A DNA stretch of 32,107 bases from a virus, in IMG/VR virus record IMGVR_UViG_3300030331_000168, positions 1 to 32,107 of that record; one strand, 5' to 3'. A program made the translations under genes and the position numbers. The notes beneath the pieces are model-generated. The model was not told the DNA's origin, did not search any database, and saw only the letters and a program-made list of their open reading frames with translations. This document shows positions 4,561 to 13,919 of the stretch, in pieces. The stretch's first letter is position 1. The number at the start of each line of letters is the position of its first letter.

Positions 4561-4574
4561 CGAAAGGAGTCATT

Positions 4575-4703
4575 ATGGCTAGAAAATTTGTTGAAGAAAA
4601 AATAACTAAGTGGTGGCACGCATTCACTGAGTTAAAATCTTGGGTACAAATAGCAATAGCAATCGTTCTGGTTGTTATAGTTCATAATTATGTATTGCAT
4701 TAG
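4575..4703 (+). CDS. 42-residue single-span membrane protein
   Basis: This short gene is preceded by a strong ribosome site (GAAAGGAG, seven bases before ATG 4575). The protein starts MARKFVEEKITKWWHAF and ends with one hydrophobic helix (VQIAIAIVLVVIVHNYV). Its place directly after the holin suggests a lysis accessory such as an antiholin or second holin. It could equally be a small virion membrane-interacting protein. I do not recognise the family. Confidence 0.6.
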   Translation: MARKFVEEKITKWWHAFTELKSWVQIAIAIVLVVIVHNYVLH

Positions 4704-4706
4704 ACT

Positions 4707-4811
4707 ATGGCAAAGAAAAAGAAAAAAGCTGTAGGTCTAACTAGCAAACAGAAAAAGTTGCCTAAAGCGTTGCAGATGGCAATTTTGAAGAAACAGAAAA
4801 AGGGGAAATAA
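4707..4811 (+). CDS. 34-residue lysine-rich protein
   Basis: The gene starts three bases after the preceding stop. The protein begins MAKKKKKAVGLTSKQKKLPK and is extremely basic, with Lys at about 40 percent of positions. The middle (LPKALQMAIL) could form a short amphipathic helix. Closely spaced coding and similar proteins near the head genes (16538-16729) support it being real. DNA binding or condensation in the virion is a guess from charge. Confidence 0.5.
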   Translation: MAKKKKKAVGLTSKQKKLPKALQMAILKKQKKGK

Positions 4812-4813
4812 AT

Positions 4814-4912
4814 ATGCCAAGAGGAGTCGGTTATGGGTCAAGTAGAATGACAATGAGATCAAAACCTATAAAACCTAAAAAACCAAAAAAGAAAAAGAAG
4901 AAAAAGAAATAA
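4814..4912 (+). CDS. 32-residue protein with poly-lysine tail
   Basis: The gene starts two bases after the preceding stop and ends overlapping the next ATG (TAATG at 4910-4914). The N-terminus is MPRGVGYGSSRMTMRS; the tail is repeated KPKKP followed by eight lysines. Such short MPRGxGYG proteins with Lys-rich tails recur in phage genomes near structural genes as far as I recall. Function unknown; binding of nucleic acid or of an acidic partner is possible. Confidence 0.45.
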   Translation: MPRGVGYGSSRMTMRSKPIKPKKPKKKKKKKK

Positions 4913-5100
4913 TGGTCAAGGTAGCGTCTATAAAAAATATTATTAAAGACCTAACGCCTAGACAACAGAAAACTATGCGATCTCATGCAAGGCATCATAC
5001 TTTAAAACACATGAGGTCAATGGCTCGACTTATGGGTGGTAGGAGGAAACTTAATTTCTCTCAAGCCCATCGAGTCGCTATGAGAACTACTGGGCGATGA
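4912..5100 (+). CDS. Conserved small basic phage protein (LTPRQQKTMRSHARHHT type)
   Basis: The product has 62 residues rich in Arg, His and Lys. It contains LTPRQQKTMRSHARHHT, LKHMRSMARLM and a final SQAHRVAMRTTGR. I recall this pattern from small proteins in many marine phages, where function is unassigned. Two short helices separated by a Gly-Arg loop are likely. Its start overlaps the upstream stop and its stop overlaps the next start (ATGA at 5097-5100), so it lies inside a translationally coupled run of small genes. Confidence 0.65.
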   Translation: MVKVASIKNIIKDLTPRQQKTMRSHARHHTLKHMRSMARLMGGRRKLNFSQAHRVAMRTTGR

Positions 5101-5246
5101 CTGGCATTACCACATCAGCTTTAGTTACTGAGCTAATAGGTAAAAGACCAATAAAAAGAAGAAAAGTAAGTAGAAAATCATTTAAGGCAACTCAAAATCG
5201 CAATTTAAGAGCCGTACAGAGACTTTTAAGGGTTAGGGGTAGCTAG
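5097..5246 (+). CDS. 49-residue basic protein, last gene of the rightward unit
   Basis: ATG 5097 overlaps the preceding stop as ATGA. The protein begins MTGITTSALVTELIGKRPIK and continues with an Arg/Lys-rich stretch ending QRLLRVRGS. The TAG stop (5244-5246) shares a CTAG palindrome with the stop of the opposing gene, so the two transcription units meet with no spacer. Function is unknown; the basic charge matches its neighbours. Confidence 0.55.
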   Translation: MTGITTSALVTELIGKRPIKRRKVSRKSFKATQNRNLRAVQRLLRVRGS

Positions 5247-5258
5247 TACCCCCAAACC
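5230..5258. terminator. Hairpin at the convergent operon end
   Basis: GGGGTA (5236-5241) pairs perfectly with TACCCC (5247-5252) around a five-base loop GCTAG. Flanking bases extend the stem imperfectly to about 12 pairs (5230-5258). The loop holds both overlapping stop codons. Neither strand has a good U-run after the stem, so intrinsic termination may be weak, or the hairpin may act with another factor or as a bidirectional RNA 3' end. Confidence 0.5.
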
Positions 5259-6043
5259 TCCTTTCGTGCCTCTAGGACAGCGTTATCTCGCCAAATCCAG
5301 TCATCAGGGTTAGGAATAAGACTATCTCTAACGTCATCTAATGAATTTACTTGTTTTAGATAATTAGCCATAACAAATACGATATGTTCGCATATCCTAA
5401 ATGGTTTATCGTAATCAGTCAAAGACATACTTTCAAATTCAGTGCTAGATTTTTTTGCAATCAAGTACCAAAGTTTTTGATTTGCATTTGTGCCTCTTTG
5501 ATAGATAGCTTGTTGCATAGCATGAGACATAGATAAGCCACTTGGTTTACGCTTGGTCGTTTTAAGATCAATGTAAAAATCCTCCTTAGTTTGCTTATCC
5601 TCAAAATGAAAGTCAGTGTAACCTATCAGTGGTACTCCATGTATATTGAGTTCTACCTTTTTTTGATAGCCTAGTAGATTCCATTTGAAACCAAACTCAT
5701 TGAAAGCATTGATACCCTCATTGAATAAAGGAATTAAGTTGTATTCCTCTTCATCTTTTTTTGGGTCATCAAACAACTTACAATTAGCTTGGAACTCATC
5801 AATCATTTTATCTATTGCGTCTTGCTTATCCATACCATTGAGCCACATATTCAAACCTGACTCTACTGCTTTGCCTCGTTCTGCTGATGCACTACTAGGA
5901 AATTGAAAACCAAATATCCTACGCAAAGCCCAGCGTTCACGATTGAATGCAAACTCATTAAGATGACTAAAAGACAAGGGCAATAAACTTTTATCGCCCT
6001 CACGAACAGATGCTAAATCCCATTTTTTAAAATGTTCAATCAT
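5243..6043 (-). CDS. PD-(D/E)XK nuclease, Cas4/RecB-like
   Basis: The product has 266 residues with the ordered motifs of the PDDEXK_1 family. They are RGKAVE (56-61) with the first acidic residue E61, GYTDF (141-145) with D144, D159-L-K161 followed by TTKRKPSG, and a helix with QQAIYQ (177-182), the Q-x3-Y type motif. I see no four-cysteine Fe-S cluster, so it is not a full Cas4. It probably acts as an exonuclease in phage recombination or replication, or in host DNA breakdown. Its start overlaps the upstream stop (ATGA). It is the last gene of the leftward unit. Confidence 0.8.
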   Translation of the reverse strand: MIEHFKKWDLASVREGDKSLLPLSFSHLNEFAFNRERWALRRIFGFQFPSSASAERGKAVESGLNMWLNGMDKQDAIDKMIDEFQANCKLFDDPKKDEEEYNLIPLFNEGINAFNEFGFKWNLLGYQKKVELNIHGVPLIGYTDFHFEDKQTKEDFYIDLKTTKRKPSGLSMSHAMQQAIYQRGTNANQKLWYLIAKKSSTEFESMSLTDYDKPFRICEHIVFVMANYLKQVNSLDDVRDSLIPNPDDWIWRDNAVLEARKEVWGY

Positions 6044-6249
6044 TGAGTTACCTTTTTAGCAAAGGCTTTGGTCATTCTTGATACAACCTGATTTAACCTA
6101 GACTGCATTTCTTCAATGTCCCCAAGTTCTTCGTGAACCTCAGTCCATATATGAAGATTATGCTCACCATGTTTTTTAATAAACTCATCTTTAGTTAGAT
6201 TGCCAGCATCTTCTTGCATAGTCATATACCAAGCACTTGTTTTACTCAT
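6040..6249 (-). CDS. Small helical protein upstream of the nuclease
   Basis: The product has 69 residues, with a strong GGAGG ribosome site before ATG 6249. It is hydrophilic and helical, with LTKDEFIKKHGEHNLHIWTE in the middle and a basic end MTKAFAKKVTQ. I do not recognise a family. Four-base overlaps with genes on both sides imply coupled translation with the HTH protein upstream and the PD-(D/E)XK nuclease downstream. It might be a nuclease cofactor, but only location supports that. Confidence 0.55.
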   Translation of the reverse strand: MSKTSAWYMTMQEDAGNLTKDEFIKKHGEHNLHIWTEVHEELGDIEEMQSRLNQVVSRMTKAFAKKVTQ

Positions 6250-6443
6250 TTGACCTCCAATGAATATTCTGCAAAAGTCTTACCCTTACGAGTAACATTT
6301 TCAGTAATGATGTTATGACCCTTTTTTCTAAGATCGAGAATCCTTGCACTCAATCTAAAACAACCAAATTTATTTAGTGCTGTTAATGGGGTTAGTTTTT
6401 TACCTGACAATAGGTAATTAAGTATTTGTGTATTCTGGCTCAT
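6246..6443 (-). CDS. Small helix-turn-helix protein
   Basis: The product has 65 residues. QILNYLLSGKKLTPLTALNKFGCFRLSARILDLRKKGHNI fits the short winged-helix family seen in many phages (pattern LTPLxALxxFGCxRLxARIxDLRKxGxxI; quoted here only as consensus). It is followed by a beta-hairpin wing, TENVTRKGKTFAEY. An AAAGGAG ribosome site precedes ATG 6443. It probably binds DNA and may regulate phage genes or assist replication; the target is unknown. Confidence 0.75.
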   Translation of the reverse strand: MSQNTQILNYLLSGKKLTPLTALNKFGCFRLSARILDLRKKGHNIITENVTRKGKTFAEYSLEVK

Positions 6444-6455
6444 ATAAACTCCTTT

Positions 6456-6809
6456 CTATAAGTTTTTAGCCAATTCCCTTTCGTTGACGACTTTAGTTCT
6501 GAGGTCATCACGAAAAGCCTTAAAGGTTTCGTATCTAATCTTAGAACGATTCCTTGCTTTAAGAGTTTGCCTGTATCTGTCGGTAAACTGCTTAAACTTT
6601 TCATCAGAATAAATGTAACCATTTAATTCTGTCATGTTCTTATACCCACTATTTTTTGTATGTTCTAGTGTTAATTCTGCTATTACCATCTTTTCCTCTT
6701 TTTTCATAAGTTCTACTGCTGTGTCATCATCAGCAAAACTTAACCCTAGTTCTTCTTGCTTAGAGGATAAAATATTTGGGTTGAAATCTAATGAATAAAT
6801 ATCAGTCAT
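6456..6809 (-). CDS. Conserved phage hypothetical protein
   Basis: The product has 117 residues and is mostly helical and charged. The N-terminus is MTDIYSLDFNPNILSSKQEE; the C-terminal half contains YSDEKFKQFTDRYRQTLKAR and YETFKAFRDDLRTK. I recall proteins with this C-terminal pattern in phage early regions near recombination genes, without a function. Start 6809 overlaps the upstream stop by eight bases. A 60-residue frame overlapping it on the same strand was rejected. Confidence 0.55.
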   Translation of the reverse strand: MTDIYSLDFNPNILSSKQEELGLSFADDDTAVELMKKEEKMVIAELTLEHTKNSGYKNMTELNGYIYSDEKFKQFTDRYRQTLKARNRSKIRYETFKAFRDDLRTKVVNERELAKNL

Positions 6810-7023
6810 TTTTTTGCTCTAATTCTTGTTGTATTAATTCATACTGTATTAAGTTTTTTTCTTCTTTAATTCTTTTTTCCAAGCCTTTTATTGCTAATGA
6901 AGATTTTTTTATTTCTTTTAAAGCGTCATCTTTTTGTTTTTTGTAATAATTCAATTTAGAGTAACAACGTCTTAATAAATACATTTTATTCTCAATAGAT
7001 TCTGTATTAAAATTATATTTCAT
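6802..7023 (-). CDS. Small coiled-coil protein
   Basis: The product has 73 residues. I chose ATG 7023 rather than a TTG nine bases upstream, because AAGGAG lies ten bases before the ATG and only one base before the TTG. The sequence is very Lys/Glu-rich with heptad-like spacing (YYKKQKDDALKEIKKSSLAI, KGLEKRIKEEKNLIQYELIQ), so it should form a coiled coil. It overlaps genes on both sides. No family is recognised. It may be a small structural or regulatory partner of the HNH or 117-residue proteins, which is inference from position. Confidence 0.55.
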   Translation of the reverse strand: MKYNFNTESIENKMYLLRRCYSKLNYYKKQKDDALKEIKKSSLAIKGLEKRIKEEKNLIQYELIQQELEQKND

Positions 7024-7315
7024 TTTCTTCAAACTCCTTATCAGCGATTTTTTGATCTAATTCTTTTTTAAATTCTTCATTCAATGCTTTGTTACTATGT
7101 GCCATCGTATGACACTGACGACAAACTGGAAACAAGTTGGTTGGTACGTTGTAAGAATTTTTTTTACTGCCACCAAATCCACGAGATTTCAAATGATGAA
7201 TTTCGACTGCTGGTCGTTGATAACAACCCCAACACTGGGGGGTATCAATCATAGATAACCCCCAATAGTCGTAAAATATCTTACGATAGTTTTTAGATGT
7301 CTTTGAGATTGTCAT
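7013..7315 (-). CDS. HNH endonuclease
   Basis: The product has 100 residues. Cys pairs C28-x2-C31 and C65-x2-C68 flank the HNH core: H40-H41 (EIHHLKSRG), N60 (NVPTNLFPVC) and H69/H73 (CHTMAH). The Cys pairs should bind structural zinc, while the His residues coordinate the catalytic metal. This is a compact HNH domain with no added DNA-binding domain. It is not near the terminase genes, so recombination, replication or host DNA cleavage is more likely than packaging. It overlaps the upstream gene by 23 bases and has no clear ribosome site of its own. Confidence 0.8.
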   Translation of the reverse strand: MTISKTSKNYRKIFYDYWGLSMIDTPQCWGCYQRPAVEIHHLKSRGFGGSKKNSYNVPTNLFPVCRQCHTMAHSNKALNEEFKKELDQKIADKEFEENEI

Positions 7316-7718
7316 TAAATGATTTCACTGCATTTTTAGTCAAAGCATTTATATCTTCAACGCTGAAATGACCACTACCCATTGAACGCCCAACAACCCC
7401 AGTAACAAAAATAAGTCTATCGTTCTTATTTATACCACTTGATACTGGTCTAGCTTTTGGTGGTTCTTGACTTGGTGGAAAACCATCATCAAGAGTATGA
7501 TTGTCAGCAACAGTTACATTTTTGACATTAGTATATTGATTACCTTTGTCAGATGTTTTTACATTGATGACAGTAAAGTCAATCGCATCACCAGATTTAG
7601 GTAATGGATTTAAAACCTGACCTCTACAATATAATCTTGTCCCATCGACTAGATCAATCGCATAGTTTGGTTTACCATCTTCAGAATTGTCAAAGATTTT
7701 ATCAATTATATTAGACAT
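7293..7718 (-). CDS. Possible ssDNA-binding OB-fold protein
   Basis: The product has 141 residues. The first 75 show a beta-barrel-like pattern: YAIDLVDGTRLYCRGQVL, DAIDFTVINVKTSDKGNQY, TNVKNVTV. This resembles an OB fold, but it is a weak, by-eye call. A Pro-rich linker (FPPSQEPPKARPVSS) follows, then a domain with DRLIFVTGVVGRSMGSGHFS and DINALTKNAVKSFNDNL. Similar proteins occur in phage replication regions as I recall. A strong AGGAGGT site and AAT-repeat leader suggest high expression, as expected for a single-strand binding protein. A recombination accessory role is the alternative. Confidence 0.5.
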   Translation of the reverse strand: MSNIIDKIFDNSEDGKPNYAIDLVDGTRLYCRGQVLNPLPKSGDAIDFTVINVKTSDKGNQYTNVKNVTVADNHTLDDGFPPSQEPPKARPVSSGINKNDRLIFVTGVVGRSMGSGHFSVEDINALTKNAVKSFNDNLKDI

Positions 7719-7743
7719 TGTAGTACCTCCTATTATTATTATT
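7719..7743 (-). promoter_or_regulatory. AAT-repeat translation leader upstream of 7718
   Basis: Reading the minus strand, an AAT repeat of about 13 bases is followed by AGGAGGTACTACAATG, giving a near-perfect ribosome site. The repeat also contains the stop codon of the upstream gene. The same design precedes the genes starting at 10236 and 11003. The unstructured A/U-rich stretch would suit ribosomal protein S1 binding and efficient initiation; that role is inference. Confidence 0.6.
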
Positions 7744-8185
7744 TGTTAATGACATTATAACCTCTACCCTCTAAACAATTATTTATTAAATCTTGTCTAG
7801 TTTGTAGTTTGGGTGAAAGCCATAATACCCTCCAACGAAAACCATTATACACTACTTTACCCTTGTCTAATAGGGCATTTGTATTGTCTTTAACTATATC
7901 TTGACAAGTGTATAGGTCATCGTGGTATCTGTTCATATCACCATTGATATTTGCAGATGATTTTCCTCTTGAGTCTACTATTGGTGCATTGCTACAGCCC
8001 ATAACAGCCATAGCAACGCATAGTAAAAGAGAAATTATTATTACTCTAAAGTAAAACCTAAAGTAAGTTTTTTGTTTAGGTAAATTATGATGATATTCAT
8101 AAACTGGTTGTCTAGTTCTTAAACAGTAACCTATAACTTGTTTACTCATATAACCATAAGGAAAATATTTATTTCTCTTTTTCAT
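7739..8185 (-). CDS. Phage lipoprotein with long N-terminal extension
   Basis: The product has 148 residues. I chose ATG 8185 over 8191 because GAGG lies seven bases before it. Residues about 45-63 are a hydrophobic segment leading to VMGC (61-64), a lipobox-like site with C64 followed by SNAP. The C-terminal part has MNRYHDDLYTCQDIVKDN and ends NNCLEGRGYNVINK, like small bacterial and phage envelope lipoproteins. The 44-residue basic N-terminal extension before the hydrophobic core is far longer than a normal lipoprotein n-region and contains its own Cys and Tyr-rich sequence. It may remain as a cytoplasmic tail or affect export. Confidence 0.6.
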   Translation of the reverse strand: MKKRNKYFPYGYMSKQVIGYCLRTRQPVYEYHHNLPKQKTYFRFYFRVIIISLLLCVAMAVMGCSNAPIVDSRGKSSANINGDMNRYHDDLYTCQDIVKDNTNALLDKGKVVYNGFRWRVLWLSPKLQTRQDLINNCLEGRGYNVINK

Positions 8186-8789
8186 AAACATACCTCACTT
8201 TTGGTTTAAGATCAGAGTCTGATCTGTTAGGTCTATTAGCCCAGCCTTTACTGTTTACTGAGTAATTAATATCTTTGTCTTTTTTAAAACCAGCAAACTC
8301 TAAGTATTTACCTTTTTGCCATTTATGAATGTAAGTAACAATTTTATTAAATGAATAATAAAGGCTAAACTCATTGATTGCTTTTTTTACAAAGTAACTG
8401 GGTAATTCAAAACCATCTTTTAGTGGATTGAATTTTGGGTGAAAACAAATCCTAGTAATTTCAAAAATATTTTTATCTTTGAATCTAGCTACTGGATTAC
8501 CAATAGATAGTATGCCTAGTATTTTACCTAATGAATATAATGTTGGGTCGCCATGCTCATTATAAGACCAAAAAAAATCATCACCATCATAATTATTTGG
8601 ATATGCTTTTTCAAACCATTTAGTAAACAAATCATCATACCAATCATAGTTAGATACTGGCTCGTATGAACCAGTATCTTTTATTAGTATGAACGATTGC
8701 TTATGACCCACTGGTGGCTTGTTAGTTCTATGAAAAGAATCATAAAGAACCTTAGCCAAAGGGAAATGCAAATGTTCTACTCTAACCAT
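8169..8789 (-). CDS. XF1762-like GNAT-type protein
   Basis: The product has 206 residues. By recall it matches the XF1762-type phage/bacterial family. It has SFHRTNKPPVGHK (18-30), LSIGNPVAR (94-102), FEITRICFHP (109-118), NKIVTYIHKWQKGKYLEFAG (148-167) and a C-terminal KGWANRPNRSDSDLKPKVRY (181-200). The middle segments fit the strand and helix order of an acyltransferase fold. An insertion at about 35-90, rich in Trp, Tyr and Asp, separates the PPVG segment from the rest. The substrate is unknown; a Mom-like DNA base modification or protein acylation are both possible. It overlaps the ATPase upstream by eight bases and the lipoprotein downstream. Confidence 0.65.
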   Translation of the reverse strand: MVRVEHLHFPLAKVLYDSFHRTNKPPVGHKQSFILIKDTGSYEPVSNYDWYDDLFTKWFEKAYPNNYDGDDFFWSYNEHGDPTLYSLGKILGILSIGNPVARFKDKNIFEITRICFHPKFNPLKDGFELPSYFVKKAINEFSLYYSFNKIVTYIHKWQKGKYLEFAGFKKDKDINYSVNSKGWANRPNRSDSDLKPKVRYVYEKEK

Positions 8790-10236
8790 TGTTTACTCCA
8801 CAGTAAAGTTTTGCACCTATTCTAGTCAAACCATCATAATATTTTTCACTAAGATGATCGCCTGAATACCAGTGTCCAAACTCATGTATCATCAAGTCAA
8901 TGATTTCTACTTTGTTTGTTTTTAGATCAAACCATTTCTTACCTAAAGTTTTGTAATAAAATTCTAAGTCAGAGCCATTTGTCCCTCCACAATAAGTAGC
9001 CATAAGACGATTACCACCTAAACCAAACTCATTGTATATTGTAACATTAAGTTCAACTCCAAAAAGTTTTTTGTGTAATCTTTTATAAAGAGAAACAACT
9101 TGTTTCATTTCTTTAGTTACTTTTGACTTGTCTAAAACTTTAGCTGGTATTTCACCATCAAAGTTTGGACTTGCATATTTACCAATAGAACCAGATGGTC
9201 GAGCAAAGTCTTTGTACTCTTCTCTAGTTCTTTTGATATTATCCCAGACCCTAGAGTTGAAACTACCACCAGTAATAACATTTACATCATCTGCAAATGC
9301 TTTTTTGTTAGCCTCATGGTCAGACATATCAAAGACAACAGCGTCCTCACCATACCTAGATTCAACAACATCTTTGACTGCATCAACATCAGCATTTTCA
9401 AGAGCCTCAGTTACCCAAGCAGATTTAGCTTGCTCATCAGTCAAGTCAGATGATGTATGATTGAGTACATAAGTCTTTAGCTTTTTGAGATAACTAGGAC
9501 TTACATTGTCTCTATCTTTGTTGAGAGGTATCTTTTGATCTACATTGATTGAAAAACCAATATCAGTTTCAACCACAGGGATTCCCATTTCATAAATAAA
9601 ATGTTTATCTGTTTTGAATAACTCAATATTAGTAAGTCTTGATGATCTCACTAGATTGCCCTCATCATCAGTAACAACTGTTGGTAAATTTTCTGTAAAT
9701 ATTTTAAAATCATCTGGTCGTCTTACACGATGACCATTTACAGAATAATTAACAAACATTGGTGGTATGATAGTTTTTGCTTTTTCTGAAAGTTCAGAAA
9801 TTTCACTCCAAGTTAAATTTAACTCACCATAAAATTCTGTACCCTCTATTGTTCTTATTGATGATCTTTTTCTTGAACCATCATCTAAAAACTTTACTGA
9901 GCCAGTAGTAGATTTTATAAAAGCATATTTAAACATAGCTAGAGCAAACTTTTCCCCTACATTAAATCTACCCCTTTTTTCTACGATACCTTTTTTGTAG
10001 CTAGGGGCAAACATAGTGTAAGAGTCTTTAAGGTCTCTAAAACCATCTTTGCTGTTATCTATACAATTAATGTAACTTTTATGCTGGGTTGTTTTACCAA
10101 TATTCAAATTACAATTACTTATATTTTCATCAAAAGAATTACTGACAAGTTCCTTGATGATAAAGAATTTATCTTTTTCACTTTGGACTTGTTGCAATCC
10201 TTTTTTATCAACTTCAAACCAATTATTCTTTTGCAT
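8782..10236 (-). CDS. GHKL (Bergerat-fold) ATPase with C-terminal HExxH metallopeptidase-like motif
   Basis: The product has 484 residues. ATG 10236 is chosen for its GGAGG site; the longer frame to 10299 has none. The N-terminal domain has the Bergerat boxes: E29-LVS-N33-SF-D36, D60-NSKD-G65-F, and RGRFNVGEK (88-96), as in MORC, MutL or T4 RIIA-type ATPases. A conserved stretch, DQKIPLNKDRDNVSPSYL, follows the ATPase core. At the C-terminus, H451-E452-F-G-H455 with a further H461 gives HExxHxxxxxH, a zinc metallopeptidase signature with metzincin-like spacing. I know of phage proteins annotated only as ATP-binding with this build; activity is unassigned. ATP-gated proteolysis in host takeover or counter-defence is a hypothesis. 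Confidence 0.75.
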   Translation of the reverse strand: MQKNNWFEVDKKGLQQVQSEKDKFFIIKELVSNSFDENISNCNLNIGKTTQHKSYINCIDNSKDGFRDLKDSYTMFAPSYKKGIVEKRGRFNVGEKFALAMFKYAFIKSTTGSVKFLDDGSRKRSSIRTIEGTEFYGELNLTWSEISELSEKAKTIIPPMFVNYSVNGHRVRRPDDFKIFTENLPTVVTDDEGNLVRSSRLTNIELFKTDKHFIYEMGIPVVETDIGFSINVDQKIPLNKDRDNVSPSYLKKLKTYVLNHTSSDLTDEQAKSAWVTEALENADVDAVKDVVESRYGEDAVVFDMSDHEANKKAFADDVNVITGGSFNSRVWDNIKRTREEYKDFARPSGSIGKYASPNFDGEIPAKVLDKSKVTKEMKQVVSLYKRLHKKLFGVELNVTIYNEFGLGGNRLMATYCGGTNGSDLEFYYKTLGKKWFDLKTNKVEIIDLMIHEFGHWYSGDHLSEKYYDGLTRIGAKLYCGVNNG

Positions 10237-10480
10237 TGTTGCCTCCATTATTATTATTAGGTTTGTTGAAAGTTTCGTCCATCTTCTTACCAAGAGCATT
10301 AGCTTTATCTAATATTTCTTTTGGTAATAAATGAACAATTTTACTCCTCATTACTAATTTACCTTTGTTATCATAAACGCCAGTAGAATTATCTAAGTGA
10401 GTAATCTTGAACAAATGAATGACCTCATCGTTTTCGATAAGGTCAAACTTTTGAATTTTTTTGAAAGGTCTAGGAATCAT
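10223..10480 (-). CDS. Small hypothetical protein upstream of the GHKL ATPase
   Basis: The product has 85 residues. ATG 10480 is chosen because GAGGT lies six bases before it; upstream in-frame ATGs would extend 15 residues into the preceding gene. The body (KKIQKFDLIENDEVIHLFKI, NSTGVYDNKGKLVMRSKIVH) looks like a small beta-rich fold. The C-terminus PNNNNGGNNAKE is encoded by the AAT-repeat leader and ribosome site of the ATPase gene, so this tail is probably a by-product of that leader. It overlaps the preceding gene by 11 bases. Function unknown. Confidence 0.55.
   Translation of the reverse strand: MIPRPFKKIQKFDLIENDEVIHLFKITHLDNSTGVYDNKGKLVMRSKIVHLLPKEILDKANALGKKMDETFNKPNNNNGGNNAKE
10237..10259 (-). 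promoter_or_regulatory. AAT-repeat translation leader upstream of 10236
   Basis: On the minus strand an AATAATAATAAT run is followed by GGAGGCAACAATG. The design matches the leaders at 7719-7743 and 11004-11030, but here it lies inside the end of the upstream gene. It fixes the ATPase start at 10236. Confidence 0.6.
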
Positions 10481-11003
10481 CTGATACCTCACATAACACA
10501 TCATTCTCACCCCACTCGTTTTCAACTCTGAAAAAATATGTGTCTAGGTGCATACCACCCCAGCTTTTATGAGTAACCCATGCTGGTGATTGAACCTCTA
10601 ATTCTTGAAGATTGAAACCATTCAAAATTCTACTTTTACCATTACCATGATTGTAAGGTAAAAATTTTCTGTTACCAAATTTTGAACGTTCATCTTCATG
10701 TAAAAGCCAAACAGTTTTTTTATTACCAGTATAGTAATCATCAACAACTATTTCTTTTGCTTTTACTCTACGAGTACCATCAAAAAGACCAAAAAAATTC
10801 CACTTACCAAAATTTTCACATAGTGATCTTTTTGCACTATCAAGACTAGAACTCTGCTCACTAGCCCACTGACTTAAAAAACCATCAGTATCACAACGAG
10901 CAAAAGATTCTTCAGCCCTCTCTTGTTTTTTGATTGAGTCAGAACCATACTGTTTTGCAAGTTCTAACCAATCAGTTTGAGTCATTTCGTTTCTATTAAA
11001 CAT
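10470..11003 (-). CDS. Conserved phage protein (CDTDGFLSQWAS family), first gene of the leftward unit
   Basis: The product has 177 residues. It contains SFARCDTDGFLSQWASEQSS (33-52 approx.), then FFGLFDGTRRVKAKEIVVDD and TVWLLHEDE. I recall this conserved pattern from many phages of Proteobacteria, always unnamed. The N-terminal third is helical; the rest looks beta-rich, with Trp and Gly (THKSWGGMHLDTYFF). It begins the leftward unit with a strong CGGAGG site and an AAT-repeat leader, so it is probably among the first and most highly made early proteins. Function unknown. Confidence 0.65.
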   Translation of the reverse strand: MFNRNEMTQTDWLELAKQYGSDSIKKQERAEESFARCDTDGFLSQWASEQSSSLDSAKRSLCENFGKWNFFGLFDGTRRVKAKEIVVDDYYTGNKKTVWLLHEDERSKFGNRKFLPYNHGNGKSRILNGFNLQELEVQSPAWVTHKSWGGMHLDTYFFRVENEWGENDVLCEVSDDS

Positions 11004-11030
11004 TGTAGCCTCCGTATTATTATTATTATT
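11004..11030 (-). promoter_or_regulatory. AAT-repeat translation leader upstream of 11003
   Basis: On the minus strand about 16 bases of AAT repeat precede CGGAGGCTACAATG. It is the longest of the three repeat leaders. The GGAGG is four to five bases from the ACAATG-type start context shared by all three. No gene overlaps it, so the repeat here is not a coding by-product. Confidence 0.65.
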
Positions 11031-11039
11031 AATTAAATA

Positions 11040-11065
11040 AAAACCTACTAAATTTTTTAGGTTTT
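11040..11065. promoter_or_regulatory. Inverted repeat in the leader of the leftward unit
   Basis: AAAACCTA (11040-11047) and TAGGTTTT (11058-11065) form an eight-pair stem with a ten-base loop. On the minus strand the stem is followed by TTTTTATTT, so it could attenuate or protect the leftward leader RNA. It is A/T-rich and therefore weak. A protein-binding site is an alternative. Confidence 0.35.
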
Positions 11066-11095
11066 GTATATAGTAATTTTACATAAAAAAAACCC

Positions 11096-11123
11096 TTGAT
11101 TCCCAACGATTTTTCACTAATAA
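11096..11123 (+). promoter_or_regulatory. Candidate sigma70-like rightward promoter with overlapping repeat motif
   Basis: TTGATT (11096-11101) and TAATAA (11118-11123) are 16 bases apart, resembling -35 and -10 boxes. The nonamer TTTCACTAA (11112-11120) overlaps the -10 box and occurs again, as two inverted copies, at 12648-12679. It lies in the only sizeable non-coding region, between the divergent units. In such A/T-rich DNA chance matches are common, so this is tentative. I found no convincing leftward promoter by eye. Confidence 0.3.
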
Positions 11124-11196
11124 TTTTATTATTCTTTTTTTAGCGAGGCATTGTAGCTATAGAATAGGTAATTAAACCCATTTTGATTACCGAATC

Positions 11197-11225
11197 GAGG
11201 GGTGGGAATCTTAGGCTCACCCCTC
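11197..11225 (+). promoter_or_regulatory. G/C-rich hairpin just upstream of the first rightward gene
   Basis: GAGGGGTGGG (11197-11206) pairs over its full ten bases with CTCACCCCTC (11216-11225), allowing one G-U pair, around a nine-base loop. It ends six bases before ATG 11232. The only Shine-Dalgarno-like sequence (GAGG) is inside the stem, so folding would hide it. It might control translation, stabilise the 5' end, or end a short upstream RNA; the last is weakened by only four T residues after it. Confidence 0.55.
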
Positions 11226-11231
11226 AGTTTT

Positions 11232-11633
11232 ATGACTAAAGAGTTTTATATTCAAATAGCGTGTAACGAACTACTAAATGCCCTGACTGAAATTTACAAC
11301 TTTCGTCATTACCATGTTGCCAATGAGGGTAAACGATCTGTCCAATATTTAATAAAACTAAAAAAAATGGGCTTTCGTGCTGGCGTGCCTGATTTTATTA
11401 TTGAGTACCCAGAGGGCAGATTATTATATGTTGAGTTAAAAAATGAAAAAGGTAAACTCACAGATGCACAAAAGATTTGGAAAATTAGATCAAGTGATTT
11501 AAAGACTCCATTTTTTGTTGTTAAAGGAAACACGAAACAATGCCTTACAGAACTAACAGAAATCATCGACCAATATGTCCCTCGTAATAGACATAGGAAA
11601 AGGCAAGAGAATATATCTGCCACAGGGACTTGA
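11232..11633 (+). CDS. VRR-NUC domain nuclease
   Basis: The product has 133 residues from ATG 11232. A GTG at 11202 is in frame but lies inside the hairpin. Motifs fit the VRR-NUC family: NEGKRS (31-36), RAGVPDF with D54, YVELKNEKGKLTDAQ with E68, K70 and Q80. It is a stand-alone minimal domain, as in many phages, and probably cleaves branched DNA such as Holliday junctions during replication or before packaging. It is the first gene of the rightward unit. The C-terminal 20 residues overlap the next gene in another frame. Confidence 0.85.
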   Translation: MTKEFYIQIACNELLNALTEIYNFRHYHVANEGKRSVQYLIKLKKMGFRAGVPDFIIEYPEGRLLYVELKNEKGKLTDAQKIWKIRSSDLKTPFFVVKGNTKQCLTELTEIIDQYVPRNRHRKRQENISATGT

Positions 11634-13077: not shown

Positions 13078-13380
13078 ATGGCAAGACCGAAAAAATATAA
13101 CATAGATACTAAACAAGTAAGTAAATTAGCAAAATTAGGTTGTACGAATAAAGAGATTGCAGACTTTTATGGCTGTAGTGCTGACCTAATTGAAAAGAGT
13201 TATTCGGAATTTCTGACAAAAGGGCGAGCAGAAATGAAAATGCGTCTAAGACAGTTACAGTGGAAAAGTGCTGAAAAGGGGGCGATTGTTATGCAAATTT
13301 GGCTTGGCAAACAAATACTCGGTCAATCTGAAAATACAATAACCGAAGATGACGAACCACTGGCATGGTCAGTTGAGTGA
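13078..13380 (+). CDS. Terminase small subunit (predicted)
   Basis: The product has 100 residues. The N-terminal half is a helix-turn-helix (VSKLAKLGCTNKEIADFYGC, SADLIEKSYSEFLTKGRAEM). It is followed by a conserved helix, LRQLQWKSAEKGAIVMQIWL, and GKQILGQ, a pattern common in small DNA-packaging proteins of phages. It lies two genes before the large terminase. It should bind the packaging site on phage DNA and help the large subunit start packaging. Its TGA stop overlaps the next GTG start (GTGA). Confidence 0.75.
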   Translation: MARPKKYNIDTKQVSKLAKLGCTNKEIADFYGCSADLIEKSYSEFLTKGRAEMKMRLRQLQWKSAEKGAIVMQIWLGKQILGQSENTITEDDEPLAWSVE

Positions 13381-13919
13381 TACCTTTTCCAAAGAAAAAA
13401 TATAACATAATTTATGCCGATCCACCTTGGACTTACAAAGTTTGGTCAGGAAAAGGTAAAGAAAAAAAATCAGCAGAAAATCATTATGATTGTATGACTG
13501 ATGAAGATATTAAAAATTTACCTATCAAAAATATATCAGATGAAAATTCTATATTATTTTTATGGGTTACTTATCCGTTACTTGAGCAAGGATTATTAAC
13601 AATAAAAGAATGGGGTTTTAATTACAAAACTTGTGCTTTTAGTTGGATTAAAAAAAATAAAAAGTCTGATAGTTTATTTTGGGGTTTAGGTCATTGGACA
13701 AGAGCCAATAATGAAATTTGTTTATTAGCTACTAAAGGAAAACCGAAAAGAGTTTCCAAAGGAGTTCATCAAGTAGTTTACGAGCCAATTAGAGAACATT
13801 CACGAAAACCAGATTGTGTAAGAGATCGCATAGTAGAATTATGTGGTGATATTTCAAGAATAGAATTGTTTGCTAGACAAAAAGTTGATGGCTGGGATAG
13901 TTGGGGCGATGAATTATAA
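13377..13919 (+). CDS. MT-A70 family DNA adenine N6-methyltransferase
   Basis: The product has 180 residues with a GTG start at 13377. The catalytic DPPW is D15-W18 in NIIYADPPWTYKVW. The family pattern continues with LFLWVTYPLLEQGL, WGFNYKT, RANNEICLLATKG and a C-terminal IREHSRKPDCVRDRIVELCG, then RIELFARQKVDGWDSWG. All conserved blocks are present and the length is normal for phage members. It probably methylates adenine in phage DNA using SAM, protecting it from restriction or marking it. Its position between the two terminase genes, overlapping both, is notable. Confidence 0.88.
   Translation: MIPFPKKKYNIIYADPPWTYKVWSGKGKEKKSAENHYDCMTDEDIKNLPIKNISDENSILFLWVTYPLLEQGLLTIKEWGFNYKTCAFSWIKKNKKSDSLFWGLGHWTRANNEICLLATKGKPKRVSKGVHQVVYEPIREHSRKPDCVRDRIVELCGDISRIELFARQKVDGWDSWGDEL

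Follow-up and report, generated by a model that had tools for sequence, protein, structure and literature searches.

The DNA analysed here (hereafter the window) is a virus record, IMG/VR record IMGVR_UViG_3300030331_000168, with a length of 32,107 bases. On its minus strand, from 10236 to 8782, it carries a gene of 484 codons whose product joins a GHKL ATPase to a zincin-type domain in one chain. Our results support the view that phage, plasmid and bacterial sequences keep these two parts in combination. The family is large and unnamed, and occurs in metagenomic phages, plasmids and bacterial contigs. We think it somewhat better than an even bet that its members are single-chain ATP-gated zinc proteases, used as stand-alone weapons in the conflict between phages and bacteria. 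A first-pass annotation of the window had given the gene its correct coordinates, leaving the strand unsaid. The features of the gene are the following.

8782 to 10236, minus strand: GHKL ATPase-zincin fusion gene (P0002), 484 amino acids (aa), from the reading of the open reading frame (ORF) and from homologues
9817 to 10206, minus strand: Bergerat/GHKL ATP-binding domain, about residues 11-140, from HATPase_c_3, homologue matches and fold
10129 to 10152, minus strand: N box, E29-LVS-N33-SF-D36, in 111 of 111 sequences
10042 to 10059, minus strand: G1 box, D60...G65, in 111 of 111 sequences
9949 to 9975, minus strand: G2 box or ATP lid, R88GRFNVGEK96, with G89, G94 and K96 in 111 of 111 sequences
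9181 to 9816, minus strand: middle (transducer-like) region, about residues 141-352, from fold alignment to the N-terminal and middle (N+M) domains of Hsp90/TRAP1
9511 to 9537, minus strand: middle-domain loop, Q234-K-I-P237-L-N-K-D-R242, with Q234, P237 and R242 in 111 of 111 sequences
8785 to 9180, minus strand: C-terminal zincin domain, residues 353-484, from AlphaFold2 model m020cc7ce8519, predicted local distance difference test (pLDDT) 91.2
8854 to 8886, minus strand: predicted zinc site, H451-E452-F-G-H455-x5-H461, from alignment conservation

Conservation of the two active sites

We collected relatives of the protein from several sources. Viral contigs gave 15 loci with the single protein as query and 112 with a profile, of which 80 were kept; the two sets share some contigs. 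Genome contigs gave 39 loci, recruited by the ATPase motifs only. There were six plasmid relatives, three of them covering 80% or more of the query. Only one of 50,697 phage records matched, with two queries; it belongs to an uncultured 485-kb phage and carries no annotation. The fusion of that phage lies at 464752-466149 of LR745208.1 (L016) and shows 38% identity. The first-pass annotation had proposed a search for the same domain pair in other phages, and the pair was found both in viral contigs and in this phage. Including the query, there were 120 distinct sequences. We excluded nine under 440 aa, either partial or broken (L009, L011, L012, L013, L034, L060) or lacking the peptidase (L133-L135). 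The remaining 111 sequences (70 viral including the query, 41 cellular) have identities to the query down to 20%, with a median of 35%.

The ATPase residues E29, N33, D36, D60, G65, G89, G94 and K96 are invariant in the 111 sequences. The zinc set is nearly so, with H451, E452 and H461 each present in 110 and H455 in 109; the two rows that lack it (L025 and L047) both look broken. The third histidine stands 10 residues after the first in 103 of the 109 sequences with HExxH, and 9, 12 or 13 residues after it in the other six. Conservation of at least 98% is found in 24 columns. Among these are the GHKL boxes, all four residues of the zinc site and several middle-domain positions such as Q234, P237 and R242. 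The C-terminal alignment (75 rows) has no invariant columns other than H451, E452, H455 and H461. Loci from the viral profile scan were recruited partly by the HExxH pattern, which biases the zinc-motif counts. For the retention of HExxH we thus relied on the genome loci, where it is present in 36 of 39 (in L034 in a second frame); those without it (L025, L047 and L060) look cut or frameshifted there.

Since these residues are conserved across the family, their pairing is not due to chance. In the window, the pattern HExxHx5H occurs a single time across the six frames. The residues singled out by the first-pass annotation (E29/N33/D36, D60...G65, RGRFNVGEK, HEFGH and H461) are all present at the numbers it gave, and its proposed check on homologues found the ATPase set in all 111 sequences and each residue of the zinc set in at least 109.

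Predicted folds of the three parts

The structure prediction that had been suggested as a further check returned both a Bergerat and a zincin fold. The AlphaFold2 model of the whole protein (75-row alignment) has a mean pLDDT of 92.5 and a predicted template modelling score of 0.82. Residues 1-352 superpose on the N+M domains of TRAP1 (4ivg) with a Z score of 16.3 and a root mean square deviation of 6.5 over 313 residues, in agreement with the Bergerat-fold ATPase that had been proposed from the boxes. The ATPase-transducer regions of topoisomerase II (TopoII) tie with Hsp90/TRAP1 for this match, and the N+M part also matches MORC and MutL. The best neighbour among viral models is an unnamed 399-aa protein (E-value 1e-32, template modelling score 0.81 by target length), and the next rows include many RIIA and other GHKL proteins. 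Profiles point the same way: HATPase_c_3 matches 62 of 87 homologues (E-values up to 0.01, best 5e-8) and HATPase_c 45 of them, while residues 22-140 match HtpG (E-value 1.6e-5, probability 79%). We conclude that a Bergerat fold is predicted in the N-terminal part. The family has a G1 spacing of D-x4-G, unlike the classical DxGxG consensus. In three viral loci (L133:6001-7047, L134:3019-4071 and L135:6001-7053), the ATPase and middle parts are kept and a CPxCG zinc-ribbon-like tail replaces the peptidase.

For comparisons of the C-terminal domain, its 132 residues were folded alone. VIA-align comparisons were made for the whole model and for this domain, one run each, and their lists need not hold every related family. 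The leading neighbours of the domain are Wss1 (5ln5, Z 7.5), AQ_1354 (7.4), selecase (7.0) and 6mdx (6.8), an entry titled 'Mechanism of protease dependent DPC repair' that we take to be the SPRTN protease structure. YbeY follows at Z 6.5, and BepA and Ste24 lie a little below the leading ones. The top 14 rows are metallohydrolases, mostly zincin peptidases, with Z from 7.5 to 6.0. The match to the C domain of Hsp90 (4iyn) is weak (Z 5.8). Sequence profiles of the C-terminal part match myroilysin (E-value 6e-4), proabylysin (0.014) and Wss1 (0.06), and Pfam finds YgjP-like in 6 and WLM in 2 of the 87 homologues, neither of them in the query. The zincin fold scores are modest but agree with these profiles. 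The domain is thus predicted, with modest scores, to be a small zincin whose closest solved folds are Wss1, YbeY-type proteins, minigluzincins and SPRTN. The first-pass annotation had called this end metzincin-like. Its HExxH and third histidine (in at least 109 of 111 sequences) and the predicted fold agree with a zincin, but the metzincin assignment is rejected: the residue at +7 is S458, with glycine in only 6 of 111 sequences. No methionine dominates alignment columns 462-479 after the third histidine in these sequences.

Spread and evolution of the family

A quick maximum-likelihood tree was made from 97 members, 58 of them viral and 39 cellular. The two labels are mixed in it, with 12 changes, at least four of them forced by well-supported branches. 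This mixing indicates that the gene has moved between phages and cells. Some of the bacterial contigs with relatives could be prophages. The notion of a phage effector needs widening: the family is not confined to phages, having relatives on plasmids and bacterial contigs. One diverged side clade of 11 tree rows is purely cellular and comprises Cyanobacteria and Alphaproteobacteria. A Synechococcus genome that holds one of its members (L055) also has a broken second copy with internal stops (G009 contig 22, 13117-13997; L161-L164).

The N-terminal, middle and C-terminal parts all have fewer nonsynonymous (dN) than synonymous (dS) substitutions per site in every comparison with unsaturated dS (10 relatives), which indicates purifying selection on all three. 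The parts differ in their divergence among close relatives. Between the query and L003, dS is 0.26 in the middle part and 0.93 in the C-terminal part; between the query and L006, it is 1.22 and 0.77, respectively. When the protease-coding stretch (window 8785-9180) is compared with those of L003, L004, L006 and L007, the protease and ATPase/middle modules diverge in opposite ways. These differences suggest that protease modules may have been exchanged by recombination between ATPase modules, within the limits set by small samples and saturation.

Gene neighbourhoods

We found no recurrent partner of the gene in phages outside close relatives. Around 56 viral loci, we scanned 148 of 298 neighbouring ORFs and obtained 20 Pfam families, none in more than two; these were naive ORF calls, many of them possibly spurious, and the window's own neighbours were excluded. 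The cellular members provide other contexts, some of them non-phage-like. In the main clade, an annotated SIR2-HerA pair stands 3 to 4.5 kb away from the fusion gene of a Rhodovastum plasmid. In the side clade, Picosynechococcus plasmids (L021 and L022) encode in order a diadenylate cyclase (with a DAC domain beside L021), the GHKL-zincin protein and a CHAT protein. This trio looks like a signalling or defence operon, and we found no name for such an operon in the literature searched. Elsewhere in the side clade, TIR_2 adjoins L054 and L061, and a restriction-type Mrr_cat_2 helicase adjoins L051.

The plus strand of the window encodes terminase, portal, major head, tape-measure and tail-fibre genes. 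The fusion gene sits away from these structural genes, in an opposite-strand run from about 11,003 to 5,243 that also has a Mom-like gene, an HNH gene and a PD-(D/E)XK gene. A DNA methyltransferase (phrog_359, E-value 6e-83) lies on the plus strand at 13377-13919, just ahead of the terminase gene. The features next to the fusion gene are the following.

10242 to 10246, minus strand: ribosome-binding site GGAGG, five bases ahead of the ATG at 10236, from the sequence
8169 to 8789, minus strand: Mom-like gene, 206 aa (phrog_1384, E-value 1.5e-4), downstream with an 8-base overlap with the fusion gene, context only
10470 to 11003, minus strand: upstream gene of the same run, 177 aa (phrog_5855, function unknown), context only

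The longest ORF would start at 10299 and encode 505 aa. We favour the ATG at 10236 because of the GGAGG at 10246-10242 and the annotated starts of plasmid homologues (MQWFDV..., MDWFEV...). The strong leader that the first-pass annotation had ascribed to this early unit was not recovered: a scan of 4561-11300 for the sigma-70 consensus gave 21 matches against 28.9 in shuffled sequences, so no excess, and only the ribosome-binding site is visible. It had also described a GNAT-type neighbour. The adjoining gene does match the Mom-like DNA-modification family, but it does not adjoin the fusion gene in L001, the nearest relative of the query (96% identical), and it looks for that reason like a variable insert. 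The ORF cluster of this Mom-like gene has members in L007, L013 and L120.

Proposed function and alternative explanations

GHKL proteins in which a transducer domain accompanies an N-terminal ATPase usually work as clamps that dimerise upon ATP binding; Hsp90, MutL and GyrB are established cases. By analogy with Hsp90, MutL and type II topoisomerases, the Bergerat and middle domains of the fusion would make up a dimeric clamp, closed by ATP. The zincin, which takes the position of the Hsp90 C domain, would bind zinc and cleave what the clamp holds. Substrate binding and ATP closure may bring a protein to the zincin, or uncover the active site of the latter, and ATP hydrolysis would reset the clamp. 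We expect the substrate to come from the host or a rival, and probably to be a DNA-bound protein or part of a folded complex. Phages might benefit through counter-defence or host take-over, and in the bacterial branch the protein might be a defence component. The role in conflict is our best bet because the gene is carried in a mobile way without a fixed partner, because part of the bacterial clade has immune-type genes nearby, and because VcSduA, discussed below, provides a precedent.

Several results weigh against this reading. The match of the query to HATPase_c_3 (E-value 0.016) scores 15.7 bits, under the cut-off of 25. The middle domain has no significant sequence match to HtpG, and its link to Hsp90 is by fold only. 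Its loop Q234...P237...R242 resembles in wording a loop of the Hsp90 middle domain (LPLNVSRE in HtpG sequences) and is a candidate to contact the gamma-phosphate of ATP, but this sequence link being non-significant, the role is a guess. The zincin Z scores are all under 8, a range where chance likeness is possible, and Foldseek gave nothing for the C domain at E-values under 0.001 (best 0.019). The peptidase-less L133-L135 imply that the ATPase can work alone. Phage members adjoin mixed phage genes, hence a role in conflict in phages rests on analogy. Immune-type neighbours are found only in some side-clade loci, with few genes per locus examined: L055 and L059 have DUF4145 and an AAA protein as neighbours, and one neighbour each was scanned for L049 and L052, giving no match. 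The side clade is also rare. Some match was found in 18 of 292 cyanobacterial genomes and a full-length one in 3, all of which were already in our set.

A specific form of the same reading, which we regard as a lesser but serious possibility, is that the N+M part is a DNA clamp of the MORC, MutL or TopoII kind, and that a Wss1/SPRTN-like zincin strips proteins off phage DNA. The targets would be host repressors, nucleoid proteins, restriction enzymes or crosslinks. The matches of the N+M part to those three families, the presence of Wss1 and 6mdx among the top C-domain neighbours, and the Mom-like gene and nucleases in the same gene run are consistent with this idea. However, the N+M part fits Hsp90 no worse than TopoII, the zincin Z scores are tied across families without DNA roles, and no DNA-binding element was identified in the protein. 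If Hsp90 is taken as the guide instead, as the best fold match (TRAP1 N+M) and the weak likeness of the C-domain model to 4iyn would allow, the protein may be a foldase with a zincin that trims client proteins of the phage or the host (in virion assembly, for instance), without any role in conflict. We judge this unlikely: the run that holds the gene is on the opposite strand from the structural genes and apart from them, the distribution of the gene is patchy (1 of 50,697 phage records), and some bacterial members have a non-phage-like context.

It is similarly unlikely that the zincin cuts its own protein, freeing the ATPase after a trigger. Auto-processing is among the proposals made for phage metallopeptidase domains in a paper on polyvalent proteins (PMC5512222), and L133-L135 are natural forms without the peptidase. 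Yet the C domain is the last part of the chain, with only a short tail, there is no polyvalent architecture, and close relatives have diverged C domains on similar middle domains, as expected if outside targets change. Slightly less probable still is that the zincin-like domain is no peptidase but a structural zinc module or a YbeY-type nuclease. YbeY has a three-histidine site and a ribonuclease role, and both YbeY (Z 6.5) and the YbeY-like AQ_1354 (Z 7.4) rank high in the fold comparison. A purely structural zinc site would have no need of the general base E452, which is present in 110 of 111 sequences, and the WLM and YgjP peptidase profiles match some members.

An ATP-gated protease used in conflict thus remains the explanation that we prefer. 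A bolder version, plausible though short of even in our estimate, is that the family is a class of proteases run by a GHKL clamp in place of an AAA+ ring, a one-gene weapon in phages and bacteria, in which phages swap the protease module to change target. To our knowledge, the ATP-dependent proteases described so far are all driven by AAA+ ATPases. If true, a GHKL-gated protease would be a second solution for ATP-dependent proteolysis. The family is widespread (112 relatives in the viral scan and 39 in genomes), yet the query has no PHROG match at E-values up to 0.1. The fusion may hint at an ATP-controlled protease, unstudied so far, used between phages and bacteria. A survey of jumbo phages (PMC7824862) still describes RIIA and other such phage GHKL proteins as counter-defence systems that are poorly understood.

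Comparison with known systems

T4 RIIA had been given as the phage GHKL precedent. We aligned the family profile to the single T4 sequence with hhalign: residues 24-169 align with RIIA 42-207 (E-value 3e-4, probability 38%). The ATPase part is thus shared, but nothing outside it aligned, and RIIA has 725 aa and no HExxH. On these grounds, orthology with RIIA is rejected. RIIA relatives occur in 2864 phage records, against one for the fusion family. Other GHKL families share the same part of the protein. One of PADLOC's TmtA models (Tiamat system) is matched by 48 of 87 members, but in the five members examined the match covers 22-147 residues of profiles of 1302-1655 positions, i.e. the ATPase boxes only, and we rejected membership. 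Weak matches to phrog_6077 and phrog_6203 (21 and 25 of 87 members) span only the ATPase boxes in the members examined, and we treat these as separate families. A second GHKL protein, assigned to phrog_6077 (E-value 3e-61), is encoded on the contig of one member (L078:8637-9974, plus strand) and has HELAHYYGRDGTVDH, an HExxH motif, near its C-terminus. It may be that two phage GHKL families acquired, or retained, the pairing of GHKL and HExxH.

The fusion resembles Hsp90, HtpG and TRAP1 in its N-terminal ATPase, by profile and fold, and in its middle domain by fold. It differs in having a zincin in place of the C domain, and no Hsp90 Pfam match was found among the 87 members. With the Wss1/SPRTN/WLM and minigluzincin proteases it shares a small zincin fold and HExxH with a third histidine, but the link by sequence is weak (WLM in 2 of 87 members, YgjP-like in 6). 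We know of no GHKL ATPase in those proteases. We found no paper on a GHKL-zincin fusion in the PMC literature among the matches listed, the subscription literature being covered only in part. The jumbo-phage survey, as far as available, lists GHKL RIIA proteins and separate, unfused SprT-like and ArdC-like metallopeptidases (PMC7824862). The polyvalent-protein paper describes many phage metallopeptidase fusions, and in its main text the terms GHKL, Hsp90, histidine kinase and HATPase never occur (PMC5512222).

The nearest known analogue of the fusion is VcSduA, a Shedu protein (paraMORC3). It likewise has in a single chain a GHKL ATPase, a clamp-like middle domain and a C-terminal enzyme; GHKL and nuclease residues are both needed for defence, and control of the effector by the ATPase is the hypothesis of its authors (PMC12137116). 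The effector of VcSduA is a DUF4263 PD-(D/E)xK nuclease, whereas the fusion family has a predicted zincin instead, and DUF4263 is absent from the six Pfam families that match the 87 homologues (E-values up to 0.01). If ATP-gated proteolysis were shown, the fusion would rank higher than a zincin-bearing variant of GHKL-gated effectors. As it stands, it is a putative GHKL-gated effector of known plan, new in having a predicted zincin as its effector.

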